A stretch of 34,243 nt of DNA from Bacteroidota bacterium (GTDB taxonomy: Bacteria > Bacteroidota > Ignavibacteria > Palsa-1295): contig JAKAIL010000005.1 in the NCBI GenBank assembly GCA_021825235.1, forward strand, positions 1,887-36,129, in the 5' to 3' direction. Of the stretch, positions 22,143 through 32,315 are shown piece after piece. Within the stretch, counting starts at the first letter, position 1. Each line of letters begins with the position of its first letter. The notes under the pieces are model-generated. The model did not search any database and was not told the origin of the DNA. It saw nothing but the letters and a program-made list of their open reading frames with translations. Position numbers and translations under genes: made by a program.

Positions 22143-22235
22143 TGGAGCAACCCCTCCGTGCCAGATGGCATGTACGAGTGCGTCGTGCGGATGAATGGGC
22201 AGGTGCAGCAGGCGGGGGTGGTGCTGATGCGGTAG
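22143..22235 (+). repeat. C-tail repeat copy A (intact 3' end of the BNR gene)
   Basis: The last 31 codons of the BNR gene (WSNPSVPDG, then MYECVVRMNG to VLMR-stop). Nearly identical segments recur as relics without a gene body at 23019-23093, 31348-31440 and 32072-32158. Copy C has exactly the same 93-base length and stays in register, so these are duplicated gene ends, not chance similarity. Confidence 0.8.
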
Positions 22236-22969: not shown

Positions 22970-23018
22970 ACAAATTGAACTCTTTCGAAGTTAACTTTAG
23001 TGCCAGACGATCCCGCGT

Positions 23019-23093
23019 GCGGATGGGATGTACGAGTGCGTGGTGCGGATGAATGGGCGGGTGCAGCAGGCAGGGTCGGTGCTGATGCGGTAA
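23019..23093 (+). repeat. C-tail repeat copy B (relic of a BNR gene 3' end)
   Basis: Twenty-four codons plus TAA (ADGMYECVV ... GRVQQAGSVLMR) match the end of the intact BNR gene, but no body precedes it; the DNA upstream is the promoter side of the minus-strand addiction-module gene. With copy A it forms a direct repeat bracketing the three-gene toxin-antitoxin cluster. It shares a stretch of about 50 identical bases with copy D at 32 kb. Confidence 0.8.
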
Positions 23094-26109: not shown

Positions 26110-26119
26110 TATACGCATT

Positions 26120-26242
26120 ATGTTCCTGAAACGGCTTCTCGCGATTGTGTTCGCCGCCGCGCTCGCGGCGATGGGCGGGGCCAGAGCAGGAATTCGTTCA
26201 CATAATTTGTCGGTCGAAATCTCATGGGAATTACTGCAATGA
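26120..26242 (+). repeat. N-leader repeat copy c (40-codon leader ORF with truncated signal peptide)
   Basis: ATG at 26120 opens MFLKRLLAI..., matching the BNR signal peptide through GGARAG (to about 26188), then diverges and ends in TGA at 26240-26242. That stop overlaps the ATG at 26239 of the AbrB-like gene (ATGA). Unlike copies a, d, e and f, the conserved 50-bp upstream block is absent, because the flavoprotein gene ends 11 bases earlier. Confidence 0.7.
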
Positions 26243-26475: not shown

Positions 26476-26805
26476 CTATTCTCCTAAGTTTGCAAGCAGT
26501 TGGCGTAACTCCGAGTCGGAAAGGGAACCTCTCTCCGATTTATCGTAGATGGCAATCAGGCGAACCGATTGTTTGATTATTCTTACATTCGTGATGACCC
26601 GCCCGCCGCTGGATTTCCCTTTGCCTTTCGAGGTGAACGCGAGGCGAACCTTGAAACAATGATGACCGAGCGCCACACCAATCTCTGGCTGGGTCTCCAA
26701 TTGAGAGATAAGCGCTTCAAGGTCTCATTTCAGCGAACGATGCTTCTTCGCCAGCGCTTTGGCCTGGCGATCGAAGGTGGGCGTGGTGGTGACGTTAAAG
26801 CTCAC
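26476..26805 (-). pseudogene. RelE/HigB-type toxin with one in-frame TGA
   Basis: Reading the minus strand from GTG (26803-26805) gives SFNVTTTPTFDRQAKALAKKHRSLK, then TGA at codon 27 (26725-26727), then DLEALISQLETQPEIG and on in the same frame through KVRLAFTSKGKGKSSGGRVIT and LIAIYDKSERGSLSDSELRQLL. This is a standard RelE-superfamily toxin layout; without the stop it would be 109 residues, a normal length. The nonsense codon is the only visible lesion, so the loss is recent or the C-terminal part (from about 26700) is made from an internal start. It overlaps the antitoxin gene by 11 bases. Confidence 0.75.
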
Positions 26806-27067: not shown

Positions 27068-27200
27068 CCCTACCGCGTCGGGCACTTTCGCACCCCGCCG
27101 GCGTTTGAACGGGCGAACGGCTATGCTTATGAAACGGCTTCTCACGATAACCCTCTTTGCGTCAATTGCGGCGCTGGCGGGACGCGCCATGCGCTCATAG
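27068..27200 (+). repeat. N-leader repeat copy d (upstream block plus 25-codon leader ORF)
   Basis: The conserved upstream block (GTCGGGCACTTTCGC ... CCGGCGTTTGAACGGGCGAA) leads to ATG at 27123 and the leader MLMKRLLTI...AALAGRAMRS, ending TAG at 27198-27200. The DUF4160 gene starts 29 bases later. On the other side it borders the minus-strand toxin-antitoxin pair, so the two modules are separated by this copy. Confidence 0.78.
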
Positions 27201-27229: not shown

Positions 27230-27499
27230 ATGCCAGAAATCAGTAGATTTTTCGGAATCGTTATTACTATGTATAAGGAGTCGGAAGGACCGCATCACCG
27301 CGCGCATTTCCACGCGCGATATGCTGGGAAAAAAGCGAGTTTCAGTATCGATCCCGTTGAATTGATTGCCGGCTCGCTCCCTCGCAAGGAGCAGCGGTTT
27401 GTCGAGGCATGGGCCGAACTTCACCGGAAGGAACTTAAAGAAAATTGGGCCTCGTTAGAACAGGGAATTTTACCCGCTCCGATTACTCCACTCCAATGA
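27230..27499 (+). CDS. DUF4160 protein (copy 2)
   Basis: 89 residues, the same length as copy 1 at 18857 and differing at only about a dozen or so positions (MPEISRFFGIVITMYKE..., HFHARYAGKKASFSIDP, AWAELHRKELKENW). Paired by an ATGA overlap with a DUF2442 gene. The pair as a whole is a duplicate of 18857-19425. It sits between N-leader copies d and e. Confidence 0.86.
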   Translation: MPEISRFFGIVITMYKESEGPHHRAHFHARYAGKKASFSIDPVELIAGSLPRKEQRFVEAWAELHRKELKENWASLEQGILPAPITPLQ

Positions 27500-27810
27500 T
27501 TGGACACGAATTGCACGATATCAAAGCCGTCGAGGTCATTGGCCCTCATGCGCTACGGCTTCGGTTTGAAGATGGCGTCGTGCGCGAAGTCGATCTGAGT
27601 GGCATCACGGAAGGCGCAATGTACGGCCCGCTGCGCGACCCGGAGTTTTTTGCGCAAGTCCGGCTCAATCCCGAAATTGAAACCATCGAGTGGCCCAACG
27701 GCGCCGATTTCGATCCCGAGACGCTGTATAACTGGGATATGTACTGCGTCTCATGGCGTGAAGCCGCACAAAAGCTGGCAGCCAAGCAGCGATTCGCCGC
27801 GCACAATTAG
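27496..27810 (+). CDS. DUF2442 protein (copy 2)
   Basis: 104 residues: MIGHELHDIKAVEVIGPHALRLRF, GPLRDPEFFAQVRLNPEIETIEW and DFDPETLYNWD, closely matching copy 1. The start at 27496 overlaps the DUF4160 stop (ATGA). The C-terminal extension after YNWD differs from copy 1 (MYCVSWREAAQ...). Followed within about 20 bases by the next N-leader upstream block. Confidence 0.86.
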   Translation: MIGHELHDIKAVEVIGPHALRLRFEDGVVREVDLSGITEGAMYGPLRDPEFFAQVRLNPEIETIEWPNGADFDPETLYNWDMYCVSWREAAQKLAAKQRFAAHN

Positions 27811-27827: not shown

Positions 27828-27955
27828 CTCCCGCGTCGGGCACGTTCGCTCCGCGCCGGCGTTTGAACGGGGGAACAGCTATGCTTTCGAAACGGCTTCT
27901 CGCGATTGGTCTTGGCGCCGCGCTTCCGGCAGTGAGGCTGCCGACCTGTAACTGA
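27828..27955 (+). repeat. N-leader repeat copy e (upstream block plus 24-codon leader ORF)
   Basis: Upstream block (GTCGGGCACGTTCGCTCC ... CGGCGTTTGAACGG) then ATG at 27881 and the leader MLSKRLLAIGLGAALPAVR..., stopping at TGA 27953-27955. The 207-aa gene starts five bases later, so the leader and payload are close enough for translational coupling. The leader is cut mid-signal peptide, and the matching C-tail appears only after 3.4 kb (copy C), as if the payload replaced the protein body. Confidence 0.78.
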
Positions 27956-27960
27956 CAATC

Positions 27961-28584
27961 ATGTACGAAGAGCAGTTATCACAACTATCACCTCAGGAAC
28001 GCGAGCTTTTCCGAGCCCTACAAAAGGAAAAGTACCCCCGTCTCGCCGAGATGTACCTCGGTGCTAAACTTTGCTGGCTGGACGAAGCAAATCCGGAACG
28101 GGTGCACACCACAGCGCATTGCCTCAGAGAATTGGCAGAAAAAATCGGCTTTAAGGTGAATCATCCCGCGATGGGAACTGTGTTGAGGGAGGCGATGGAG
28201 AAGTATGAAAAGTTCCGCAAAGAATGGATATTTGCCTTTGACCTGAGAGAGTTTTCACCGCACACAGAAACAGCAATTCAGATTTTCGAGGATATCGGGA
28301 GCTATAACGAGCAATACAACAAAAAGAGAAAAGAAAGATTTACCGAGGTCATAAGTCAAAGGCGTTCAATAAATGACGCTTCGAACACCTACATTGCAAG
28401 CGAGATCACGAATATTTGGAGCTTTTTTACCGATGTTTGCCATCACGGGAAGACAGCAGTGACGGAGGATCTTATGGAGATTTATATTGCCCAGTTAGAA
28501 AGGCTTTTGCTGCCGCTTGTCAAGCCGCAAGCCGCGACGAACATCAATGAAATGCTTCGACTGATTGAGGAGGCGGAAAAATGA
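27961..28584 (+). CDS. unknown helical protein (207 aa), partner of the 916-aa protein; possible HEPN-like domain
   Basis: Not a family I can name with certainty. The sequence is predicted all-helical: an N-terminal charged region (LSPQERELFRALQKEKYP), then ANPERVHTTAHCLRELAEKIG, where R-x5-H resembles the HEPN ribonuclease motif, and a C-terminal part with ASEITNIWSFFTDVCHHGKTAV, a His-His-Gly arrangement I associate with helical proteins in defence regions. No signal peptide or membrane segment. The stop overlaps the start of the 916-aa gene by four bases (ATGA), so the two are made together. Base composition is lower in GC than the leader before it. Function is inference; an ordinary helical adaptor is equally possible. 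Confidence 0.75.
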   Translation: MYEEQLSQLSPQERELFRALQKEKYPRLAEMYLGAKLCWLDEANPERVHTTAHCLRELAEKIGFKVNHPAMGTVLREAMEKYEKFRKEWIFAFDLREFSPHTETAIQIFEDIGSYNEQYNKKRKERFTEVISQRRSINDASNTYIASEITNIWSFFTDVCHHGKTAVTEDLMEIYIAQLERLLLPLVKPQAATNINEMLRLIEEAEK

Positions 28585-31331
28585 TCTCCAAGAAGAAGCT
28601 GGATGAAGTACGCGCGTTTATAAACTCTGAGGCGGCGAACGATGCTTTTTATAAAGCGCTGACGAAAACGGACTGGATACCCGCTTTAATCGAAGTCGAT
28701 GGTTTTGGCCAGCCGGAGCCGGTAAAAATCGAACCCACAGACTTTTTCGGGGCAGAGTCGAAAGCAATAAGCTTCCCAAATTGGGAGCCATCTCGGTATT
28801 TAGCACGCATGGGTTCCACGAAGGATTCCATCGTGATTCAGGCATTGACGACAATTCCTGAAACCGATAATATCGCAGTCAGAGCAGATATTATTGATGC
28901 GGTGCTGAATTTTCCTGTCTCAGAAACAGCGGAATTAATTCGGCGCGAAATTCAATGGCTGAAAAAGCAGCGATCTCTCTACACTTTTTATCCGCAAAAG
29001 CTTTTTGCGCTCATACACGCTGTAAGTAACGAGGACGCATCGTTAGCAATCGAGCTGATCGATGCTGTATTCAAACTGGATATTTTAGAAGAGGATACGT
29101 TTTTCGGACAATCATCCCGAAAAAAGGACGCTACAAAATTTGACGGTTGGCTTTATTGCGACCAGCTCGTGAGATTATCGAAAGAATTTATCGCCCTCAA
29201 AAGCCTCGACTTTCTTCAATGGACGGTCAGCGAGCTAACGAGGGCGCTCTCGGCAATCGCACCGCAGCCACAAATGATTGCGGGCCTCAAAGATGACTTC
29301 TCGTGGATTTGGCGACAAACTATAGAGGAATCTGACGATTACCACAGCTGGGATGGGAAGAATGGACTCGTCGCGGCCATTAGAGAGACGGGTGTTGCGA
29401 TCCTTGCTCAGTGGCCCGAGAAGGCCTTAACACTGATCGAGCTCCTCGAAAAACAGGATTGGCTGGTCTTCAAACGACTAACGTTTTTTATGATTGGCAT
29501 GAAGCCAGAACAATTTATTCCAAAGATCAAGGCTTACGCCGTAGATCGCGAGGTTTTTTCCTCGAAGCCATTGCGCCGGGAGTACATAGGGTTGGTTCGC
29601 GCCGCGTATGAATTTCTCGAACCCGCAGAAAAAACAACGTTTTGGGGATTCGTGGACGCTGAAAAGGCTGAAGATCGGGTTCAGTGGTATTCTGAGTTTG
29701 AAAGTTTACTAACCTCAGAACAGAAACGGCATTTTCAGGAGCTAAGCCAGCATTACACACCGAATGAATTTTTTAAATCTCCGTTCACCCATCCTATAAT
29801 TTCGGGAACCATAAGTCCCATAGATGCCACGGAACTGCTACGCAAAGACGATGGCGAACTGATCGGCTTCTTGAGTTCCTGGCAAGGTTCCGGGCAGTTC
29901 GGGGAGCCCGATGTCGAGGGTCTCGCTGATGTGCTTGGGGTGGCAGCGACTATCGACCCCGATCGGATTGCCAATCTGCTTCATGCAATTAACGGGATTA
30001 ACGAGCCCACTTATCTAAGAATCGCGCTGTTTGGCCTCTCTCAAGCGTTACAGAACAATGCGGACTTTCAGCCTACTGCCATTCTAAGAGCTTGCCTTGG
30101 CATCGATTTCGAAAACCGCAAAATTCGTCAAAGAAGTCTTCAACCCGGAGAAGACCTCGACCTTGATTGGACCGGCCCAGCAAACAATGCAATGGGGTGT
30201 TTACGAAACGCCATTTACCATGGTAGAATACAGTTAGCGGACGTACCGTTTGCATTACAATTGATTCGAAAATTTATAGGCTACCCAAACCCCACCGATG
30301 AAGAGGAGAAGGAACGACTGCCCATCGAGGATCCGCTAACCTTAGCGATTAACACGGTTAAAGGAATGGCAGCAGATTCGCTTCTTGCTTTGGCGCGCTG
30401 GCTTGCTTCAAAAGAAGCGCTGGACTCATATCGTGACGATATTGAGGCTTTGCTATCCGCAAATATTTCCCAAACCCAAAGCTCACTCTCAGTTCGGGCA
30501 ATTTATGGCTCCAACCTTATCGCTCTAGAATCACTGTTCCCAGATTGGTGCACGCGGTTTATAAACGACATCTTCCCTGATGATGTCGTTCGATTCCTAG
30601 CTGCGTGGCAGACCTACATTGTTTATTCTGGCCCAGACTTGCGGCATCTTCCAATATTACGGAAATTCTATTATCGCTATCTGGAACTTTATAAAAACGA
30701 TGCGCCCGTGGATTTATGGAGAACTGTTGCTAATCCTGGCGCGCGTTTAGCCCAGCATTTTGTCGGTTTAACTATCAATTCAAGCTGGGAACCCGACGAA
30801 CCATTCCTTGTCAACTTTTTTGATTCCGTCAATTCAGAGATCCGGTCTGAATTCTGGAGACACTTAGGGCGCAGCTTGTCTACGGTAGGTGATAGATGGC
30901 CGAAACAAGTTCTAACTCGATTGTCTCGTATTTGGACGGCGCGCCGCGAGAGTGGAAACATATCAATCCCAGAGGCAAAGGCATTCGGGTGGTGGGTCAA
31001 GTGCTCCTCTTTTGATAGGTTGTGGGTTTTAGAGGAATTCGATAGTGCTCTCGAAATTGCAAAATCAAGTGAGATGGAACGATTTAATGACTCTATCGAA
31101 GCTTTCGCTGAGGACTCAAAAGCGTACCCCGAGAAGACGCTCTCGATTTTGTCGAAGTACTTGCAATTTGCAAAAAATGGTTACGAGGCGGCCTATTTGG
31201 AGCAATTTATTAAGCAGATAATTATGAACGCTCACCAATTTCCGGAGCAAGTGGATGAAGCTGTAGATTCTCTGGTTAGTCTCGGTCTTTTGGAATTCAG
31301 GCGTTTTTCAAGCTCTTCAGGCATAAGCTAG
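28581..31331 (+). CDS. unknown 916-aa helical-repeat protein, defence-island-like
   Basis: A cytoplasmic, all-helical solenoid-type protein; no signal peptide, membrane segment, P-loop or nuclease motif is seen. The N-terminal stretch (residues about 18-80: FYKALTKTDWIPALIEVDGF ... ISFPNWEPSRYLARM) and later segments (INTVKGMAADSLLALARWLA near 595 and SSLSVRAIYGSNLIALESLFPDW near 630) resemble the helical C-terminal halves of very large STAND-type ATPases found near anti-phage genes, but here the ATPase part is absent. Coupled by an ATGA overlap to the 207-aa gene. Visibly AT-richer than flanking DNA, suggesting transfer. Directly followed by BNR C-tail copy C. Family similarity is from memory and unverified. 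Confidence 0.78.
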   Translation: MISKKKLDEVRAFINSEAANDAFYKALTKTDWIPALIEVDGFGQPEPVKIEPTDFFGAESKAISFPNWEPSRYLARMGSTKDSIVIQALTTIPETDNIAVRADIIDAVLNFPVSETAELIRREIQWLKKQRSLYTFYPQKLFALIHAVSNEDASLAIELIDAVFKLDILEEDTFFGQSSRKKDATKFDGWLYCDQLVRLSKEFIALKSLDFLQWTVSELTRALSAIAPQPQMIAGLKDDFSWIWRQTIEESDDYHSWDGKNGLVAAIRETGVAILAQWPEKALTLIELLEKQDWLVFKRLTFFMIGMKPEQFIPKIKAYAVDREVFSSKPLRREYIGLVRAAYEFLEPAEKTTFWGFVDAEKAEDRVQWYSEFESLLTSEQKRHFQELSQHYTPNEFFKSPFTHPIISGTISPIDATELLRKDDGELIGFLSSWQGSGQFGEPDVEGLADVLGVAATIDPDRIANLLHAINGINEPTYLRIALFGLSQALQNNADFQPTAILRACLGIDFENRKIRQRSLQPGEDLDLDWTGPANNAMGCLRNAIYHGRIQLADVPFALQLIRKFIGYPNPTDEEEKERLPIEDPLTLAINTVKGMAADSLLALARWLASKEALDSYRDDIEALLSANISQTQSSLSVRAIYGSNLIALESLFPDWCTRFINDIFPDDVVRFLAAWQTYIVYSGPDLRHLPILRKFYYRYLELYKNDAPVDLWRTVANPGARLAQHFVGLTINSSWEPDEPFLVNFFDSVNSEIRSEFWRHLGRSLSTVGDRWPKQVLTRLSRIWTARRESGNISIPEAKAFGWWVKCSSFDRLWVLEEFDSALEIAKSSEMERFNDSIEAFAEDSKAYPEKTLSILSKYLQFAKNGYEAAYLEQFIKQIIMNAHQFPEQVDEAVDSLVSLGLLEFRRFSSSSGIS

Positions 31332-31347: not shown

Positions 31348-31440
31348 TGGAACGATCCCTCGGTGCCGGATGGGATGTACGAGTGCCTTGTGCGGATGAA
31401 CGCGCAGGTGCAGCAGGCGGGGTTGGTGGTGATGCGGTAG
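31348..31440 (+). repeat. C-tail repeat copy C (relic of a BNR gene 3' end)
   Basis: Thirty-one codons including TAG (WNDPSVPDG, MYECLVRMNA to VVMR) match the BNR gene end at exactly the same length (93 bases) and frame, starting 16 bases after the 916-aa gene stop. No BNR body is left between N-leader e and this tail. It forms a direct repeat with copy D about 0.7 kb on. Confidence 0.82.
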
Positions 31441-31472: not shown

Positions 31473-31691
31473 ATGAGCGCGCGAGAATTAGCCGAATTAT
31501 TCGAAGAACTGCCAGCCGAGGCCCGGTCGCAAATCGAGCGGTTGGCGGAAAAGCTGCGCGCGGCTCGGCGTGCCCCAAGCGCGAATGACGATTATTCCTT
31601 CGATTGGGCCGGAGGGCTTAAGGAATTTCGCGACCAATACACATCGGTCGAACTTCAGCATAAAGCAAGCGAGTGGCGGCTCGAGTCCTGA
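31473..31691 (+). CDS. VapB-type antitoxin (DUF2281-like)
   Basis: 72-residue protein MSARELAELFEELPAEARSQI, a hydrophilic middle, and the hallmark C-terminus FDWAGGLKEFRDQYTSVELQHKASEWR found in VapB antitoxins partnered with PIN toxins. It overlaps the following PIN-domain gene by 19 bases. I use the ATG at 31473; a longer in-frame reading from 31341 runs through the C-tail relic in a non-native frame and is rejected. Confidence 0.85.
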   Translation: MSARELAELFEELPAEARSQIERLAEKLRAARRAPSANDDYSFDWAGGLKEFRDQYTSVELQHKASEWRLES

Positions 31692-32065
31692 TCGATACCA
31701 ATATTTTCCTCGAAGTTCTGCTGGAGCAAGAGCGTTGGAGGGAGTGCGAGGATCTCTTACGAGCATATCGGGGTGTCTCGGCGCTCACCGATTTCGCTCT
31801 ACACTCCATCGGCGTTACATTACTCGGCCTTAAAAACGCGCCGCTCTTTCAGCGGTTTGCGAATGATGTCCTCGTTCGGAACGATTTGTTGACATTGCAT
31901 CCATCCGAGTTTCCGCTGCTGATTGCGATCCATGAACAGCACCGTTTGGGGTTCGACGACGCGTATCAACTCGCCGTAGCGGAGCATTTCGGTCTTGAAT
32001 TCTTTACCATCGATCGTCACTTTCGAGGGATTGAATCGCCAATCAAAATAACCGTGCTGGAGTAA
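31673..32065 (+). CDS. PIN-domain toxin (VapC-like ribonuclease)
   Basis: PIN-domain endoribonuclease, toxin of the VapBC pair. The first metal-binding Asp is in VLIDTNIFLEVLL (Asp8), with later acidic residues in GFDDAYQL (Asp95/96) and FFTIDRHF (Asp114). The 130-residue length is typical. The start is GTG at 31673, inside the VapB gene end. Only six bases after its stop the C-tail copy D begins, so the VapBC pair is precisely bracketed by C-tail copies C and D. Confidence 0.88.
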   Translation: MAARVLIDTNIFLEVLLEQERWRECEDLLRAYRGVSALTDFALHSIGVTLLGLKNAPLFQRFANDVLVRNDLLTLHPSEFPLLIAIHEQHRLGFDDAYQLAVAEHFGLEFFTIDRHFRGIESPIKITVLE

Positions 32066-32071
32066 TCCGGC

Positions 32072-32158
32072 AATCCCACCGTGCCAGATGGGATGTACGA
32101 GTGCGTGGTGCGGATGAATGGGCGGGTGCAGCAGGCGGGGTTGGTGGTGATGCGGTAG
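32072..32158 (+). repeat. C-tail repeat copy D (relic of a BNR gene 3' end)
   Basis: Twenty-nine codons including TAG (NPTVPDG, MYECVVRMNG to VVMR) matching the BNR 3' end in frame, starting six bases after the VapC stop. It differs from copy C at about six positions. The next N-leader upstream block starts within ten bases, preserving what looks like the original tail-to-leader junction of tandem BNR genes. Confidence 0.82.
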
Positions 32159-32165
32159 GGACTTC

Positions 32166-32315
32166 CCCTTCCCCGCGGGCACTTTCGCTCCGCGCCGGCG
32201 TTTGAACGGGCGAAGGGATATGCTTTCGAAACGGCTTCTCGCGATTGCTTTTGCCGCCGCGCTTGCGGCGGTGGGCGGGCGTGGTGCACGCGCGCAATGG
32301 GTGCAGACGAATGGA
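32166..32315 (+). repeat. N-leader repeat copy f (complete signal peptide plus QWVQTNG)
   Basis: Upstream block (CGGGCACTTTCGCTCC ... CGTTTGAACGGGCGAA) then ATG at 32220 and the full signal peptide MLSKRLLAI...GGRGARAQWVQTNG, the longest leader relic. The match to BNR proteins stops at 32315; the frame then runs on antisense to the DUF2158-like gene and stops at 32420. The junction falls one base before the stop codon of that minus-strand gene. Confidence 0.8.

Follow-up and report, generated by a model that had tools for sequence, protein, structure and literature searches.

The locus examined here raises the question of whether two overlapping genes, lying between remnants of a secreted-protein family and among toxin-antitoxin-type genes, form a phage-defence system, and if so, which of the two proteins would sense the phage and which would act on the cell. 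A sequence-only reading of the window (i.e., the whole stretch of 34,243 nucleotides that was analysed) had proposed an undescribed defence-type system made of a large helical sensor and a small HEPN-like effector. Our answer is that the pair is a likely candidate for a two-component phage-defence module of the abortive-infection type, in which the sensor belongs to a known family and the effector does not appear to be a canonical HEPN protein.

The gene pair and its surroundings

The first gene, P0001 (27961–28584), encodes a 207-aa all-helical protein, the proposed effector, while the second, P0002 (28581–31331), encodes a 916-aa DSR1-like solenoid, the proposed sensor. Both ORFs are intact and, like their junction and the leader and tail copies that bracket them, lie on the forward strand; they overlap by the ATGA at 28581–28584. 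The second ORF is not a chance frame, since it consists of 916 open codons and has homologues at E-values down to 6e-75. The earlier description of the surroundings also holds: the pair is AT-richer than its neighbours (GC about 0.47, vs. 0.50–0.58 in neighbouring genes) and is bracketed by a leader copy (27837–27940, repeat families D3/D4) upstream and a tail copy (31352–31440, repeat family D2) downstream, both of one secreted-protein family. Toxin-antitoxin-type genes are indeed found on both sides, with DUF4160 and DUF2442 at 27230–27807 and DUF2281 and PIN at 31473–32062, while a RelE match at 26479–26700 is weak and falls under Pfam's own cut-off. In an attempted empty-site comparison, synteny with congeners stopped at a flavoprotein gene.

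The bracketing copies belong to a wider pattern. Within the window, the 89-nt tail occurs at 22147–22235, 23005–23093, 31352–31440 and 32070–32158, and the leader at 26119–26179, 27079–27176, 27837–27934 and 32176–32273. All derive from one secreted BNR/sortilin-type family, and they bracket small toxin-antitoxin or defence modules. Genome-wide, there are 15 tail matches, four of them clustered on contig C330 in a stretch of about 3 kb, where they accompany DUF2283-like and PIN-type modules resembling those of the window. It appears that cargo has been inserted several times into, or next to, members of a single multicopy gene family.

A DSR1-like solenoid with several partners

P0002 matches the PADLOC Dsr1 profile (PDLC04166) at an E-value of 3.5e-14, with residues 94–690 covering profile positions 414–1006 of 1227, and the NCBIfam Dsr1 model (NF041818) at 1.5e-6, the latter with 26.3 bits, i.e., under the curated cut-off of 1400 bits; a Pfam search yielded no match for this protein. 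Relatives were sought in plasmids (by tblastn), in genomes of the same phylum and class, and across 85,000 species. From about residue 15 to its end, P0002 shares 20–27% identity with single-chain proteins of about 1,100 aa from many phyla. Because its residues 15–907 align to residues 189–1127 of one of them, the 1132-aa L038 (27% identity, E-value 6e-75), P0002 corresponds to a fused protein minus its first ~187 residues. Judged from these alignments, P0002 is a diverged DSR1-type helical sensor solenoid, in line with the suggestion that the larger gene product supplies the helical, sensing portion of a defence system. Solved structures related to the solenoid by sequence were not found, and single-protein scans with P0002 returned nothing from genome contigs or viral contigs; the latter were also scanned with the alignments, with P0001 and with the N-terminal domain of L030 (see below), to no effect.

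The pair itself carries neither of the modules that accompany this solenoid elsewhere. As previously noted, P0002 has no ATPase motif (Walker A is absent), and no Pfam NTPase model matches either protein. Likewise, Pfam, PADLOC and NCBIfam returned no SIR2 domain (GxGxS and TTNxD motifs) in P0001 or P0002, and a pattern search of P0001 found no sirtuin motif. Plasmid searches by tblastn with P0002 retrieved a Streptomyces protein and archaeal proteins, and in the archaeal ones a P-loop STAND module precedes a DSR1-like solenoid, which bears out the suggestion that parts of P0002 resemble the helical halves of STAND-type defence proteins. The haloarchaeal plasmid loci showing this junction are L009, L010 and L011.

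Two other architectures are recurrent. In the fused one (L036–L050), single proteins of about 1,100–1,180 aa begin with a helical domain of ~185 aa, in which HLVAHLLREIES..R and AHR are invariant or near-invariant. In the split SIR2 architecture, a SIR2 gene of 306–341 aa is followed, with a short overlap or gap, by a solenoid gene of 922–980 aa (L025, L026, L028, L029, L035, L108 and L109); SIR2_2 was confirmed in four of these seven pairs, and sirtuin motifs were recognised by pattern in the other three. In a further locus of the SIR2 type (L031:9545–10500), two short ORFs stand in place of the first gene, which is apparently disrupted. Yet another N-terminal domain, the third kind (SANSFREIL ... 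NLFGFFSDLSHH), is devoid of library matches and precedes the DSR1-like solenoid of a 1141-aa protein (L030:6342–9767); the matches of this domain in L079 and L080 were rejected, as they fall in repeat-type proteins resembling TPR. Finally, L051:7965–8441 is a stand-alone, probably truncated 158-aa copy of the fused helical domain, after which no solenoid was found.

These architectures bear on whether the window holds two genes at all. P0001 and P0002 join end to end like their single-chain relatives, and the sequence read directly at the junction (28567–28584) shows a five-A run beside a GAGGAGG ribosome-binding-like stretch and the ATGA overlap, as might be expected of one fused gene whose frame was interrupted there, whether through miscalled bases, a mutation of recent date or slippage of the ribosome; the two-gene layout would then be unimportant. 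We regard this as quite unlikely, since SIR2-type relatives in other genomes are split at the same boundary with an ATGA-type overlap (4 nt in L028 and L029) and the P0002 gene carries its own ribosome-binding-like stretch and ATG. The split helical version was nevertheless found in a single genome, that of the window.

In its order, the family occurs in 1/13 genomes, again the window's own, and in 10/395 genomes of the phylum sample, DSR1-type proteins included. When the neighbours of homologues were inspected for defence genes, as the sequence-only reading had advised, type I restriction genes were recognised by Pfam beside L037, L038, L048 and L050 (a raw count), and an N6 methylase near the SIR2-type L028. 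These four fused proteins of about 1,100 aa, lying in or beside type I restriction-modification operons, form an apparently unnamed defence family. Given the homology of P0002 to DSR1, this restriction-modification setting and the patchy distribution, it is very improbable that the pair has nothing to do with phage defence, i.e., that it serves a housekeeping role or is a toxin-antitoxin-like unit travelling with the toxin-antitoxin-type genes that stand on both of its sides.

The small helical protein and the HEPN question

The relationship of P0001 to the fused helical domain is more difficult to establish. By BLAST, it matches the domain of L050 (34% over 53 aa, E-value 2e-5, 18 sequences) and, collinearly, that of L037 (23% over 179 aa, E-value 3e-4), and in a shuffle control 0/1000 shuffles reached 29.6 bits, the observed score being 33.1. 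Using a profile of the N-terminal half, P0001 was the best non-member row among about 1,160 ORFs, yet with an E-value of 0.24, and hhalign gave a probability of 35 against the fused domain. P0001 also matches the N-terminus of the same-class protein L030 (E-value 2e-4), where FFTDVCHH faces FFSDLSHH (14 aa, 43%). At the residue level, R56-E57 (codons 28126–28131) aligns with the RE pair that is invariant in fused helical domains, whereas the histidines H161-H162 (28441–28446), although aligned to L030 in the above segment, were matched to AHR by eye only, the automatic alignment having gaps there. Taken together, these sequence comparisons make it probable that P0001 is homologous to the fused helical domain. 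Other candidates were discarded: matches of P0001 to Anoct_dimer, Cas12i and phosphoserine phosphatase in Pfam, PADLOC and NCBIfam were judged to be due to chance (E-values 0.004–0.05), as were those in L032 (DUF5686), L033 (DUF58) and L034 (a 51-aa frame with stops).

The small protein had been regarded as a HEPN-like effector on account of an R-x5-H motif and of a segment with two histidines. Both exist, as R47-x5-H53 (28099–28119) and H161-H162-G163, but the alignment reveals that the fused relatives do not conserve R47, and among the aligned rows only L037 and L042 have an R-x5-H whose last residue is the invariant histidine of AHR. This lack of conservation, which had been named beforehand as grounds for refutation, counts against the HEPN part of the proposal only. 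The AlphaFold2 model of P0001 is unreliable (mean pLDDT 58), and Foldseek returned nothing usable from it. In comparison, the N-terminal domain of L042, taken to represent the fused helical domain, is modelled well as a helical bundle (pLDDT 85). HepT/HEPN chains (6m6w, 6m6u, 7bxo and 7ae6) recur among its weak PDB matches (best TM 0.45/0.60, E-value 3.1), while none of its PDB matches has an E-value <0.5, nothing usable came from the viral structure library, and solved structures related to the domain by sequence were not found. Thus, the models make a HEPN fold possible for the fused domain, and its invariant RE and AHR residues resemble a polar site. That P0001-type proteins are HEPN-type RNase effectors activated by the solenoid is nonetheless doubtful, in view of the non-significant structural matches, the lack of conservation of R-x4-6-H and the failure of all HEPN models in Pfam, PADLOC and NCBIfam to match.

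Exchange of effector modules on a shared sensor

To place P0002 among its relatives, two sensor trees were computed, both with long branches. In the first one, inferred from 27 sensors, P0002 groups with the fused-helical sensors (support 99/97), apart from the SIR2-type and STAND-type sensors. In the second one, for which five sensors were added and two rows removed, P0002 again falls with the fused clade (97/96), but the partners no longer follow the sensors: the SIR2-bearing L108 lies inside the fused-helical sensor clade (97/96), and the helical-bearing L110 inside the SIR2 sensor clade (100/100). A topology that keeps the fused helical rows and P0002 together is rejected by the AU test (p 7.5e-9, a descriptive value, as the group was chosen after the tree had been seen), and a single clade of helical-bearing sensors was also rejected, with the same reservation, when the longest rows and P0002 were left out. 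Even so, the direction seems firm: the best BLAST matches of L108 are all fused-helical sensors, with up to 546 bits, and that of L110 is the SIR2-type L028 (171 bits), its other matches being mixed. SIR2 and helical modules are thus present on both sensor branches and therefore replace one another on a DSR1-like sensor, which is the strongest argument for the helical module being an effector. Consequently, the most plausible reading of these sequence data is that one sensor type is shared and that the helical domain serves it as an alternative effector. The split into a sensor and a small effector envisaged by the sequence-only reading draws support both from this exchange and from the SIR2 and solenoid gene pairs found elsewhere.

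Immune proteins often contain helical adaptors of the death type, and the fused relatives are located within type I restriction-modification operons, which could supply an output of their own. Hence, P0001 might be a non-catalytic adaptor or assembly module, either linking the sensor to another system (e.g., restriction-modification) or driving oligomerisation. Such a role appears unlikely, because the helical module alternates on the same sensors with SIR2, which in DSR2 acts as a catalytic effector (PMC10973363), and because no restriction gene adjoins the pair in the window, where toxin-antitoxin-type genes are the nearest neighbours.

We return to the split sensor/effector defence module, which we consider likely. 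In the resting state, P0002 would hold P0001 inactive, both proteins being made from the same translationally coupled transcript. The solenoid of P0002 would recognise a phage product, the binding of which would release or activate P0001, and active P0001 would then attack some constituent of the cell, possibly RNA, and so halt the infection. That the pair protects against phage and that P0001 is its toxic output are inferred, as are the nature of the trigger and the chemistry of P0001. The scheme follows the analogy of DSR2, in which the C-terminal region detects the tail tube protein of the phage, after which the SIR2 part depletes NAD+ (PMC10973363); such a trigger is known for DSR2 only. 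Since DSR1 is reported to block phage in cells that survive (PMC10952713), cell death is not a required outcome.

As for novelty, the term "undescribed" suits the helical effector and not the sensor, which belongs to the known DSR1 family. In the literature searched, within the scope of one library, no DSR1 relative with a helical effector and no split DSR1 is described, so that the replacement of SIR2 by a helical effector is probably undescribed. DSR1 is a single SIR2 protein in the papers found, whereas in the loci reported here its sensor family is seen with three or more different partners. In a broader, more tentative interpretation, the DSR1 sensor may be a general exchangeable scaffold for phage detection, repeatedly coupled, fused or as a separate gene, to three kinds of partner: SIR2, STAND NTPases and an all-helical effector enzyme, so far undescribed, whose site would be RE...AHR/CHH and which would be neither SIR2, TIR nor canonical HEPN; the window pair would then be the split helical form. 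Module exchange predicts an unrecognised effector class in many phyla and makes the roles of sensor and effector separable by domain swaps.

Compared with known systems, the pair shares with HEPN toxins (e.g., HepT of MntA-HepT) the presence of a small all-helical protein, the structural resemblance of the fused domain being weak, but differs by the unconserved R-x4-6-H in the relatives of P0001 and the lack of a significant match. With DSR2, it would share a way of working, in which the effector at the N-terminus is restrained by a helical sensor at the C-terminus and this sensor binds a phage protein (PMC10973363), even though no sequence relation between the two was detected; the C-terminal regions of DSR1 and DSR2 themselves share little (PMC10973363). 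The STAND/AVAST-type NTPases of the archaeal plasmids (P0006–P0008) have a homologous solenoid behind the NTPase, yet their N-terminal segments are long and they carry a Walker A motif (GxGGVGKS), which P0002 does not have. DSR1 resembles P0002 in its C-terminal solenoid, over the part of the PADLOC profile given above, while the window pair is devoid of a SIR2 domain, consists of two genes instead of one and scores far under the NCBIfam cut-off. Finally, the fused family of about 1,100 aa (L036–L050 and L110) has sensors that group with P0002 and a solenoid homologous over its full length, P0001 taking the place of the helical N-terminal domain, but very diverged and with a longer middle. What is one gene there is two in the window, so that effector and sensor come naturally as separate genes, each of which can be expressed and mutated independently of the other.
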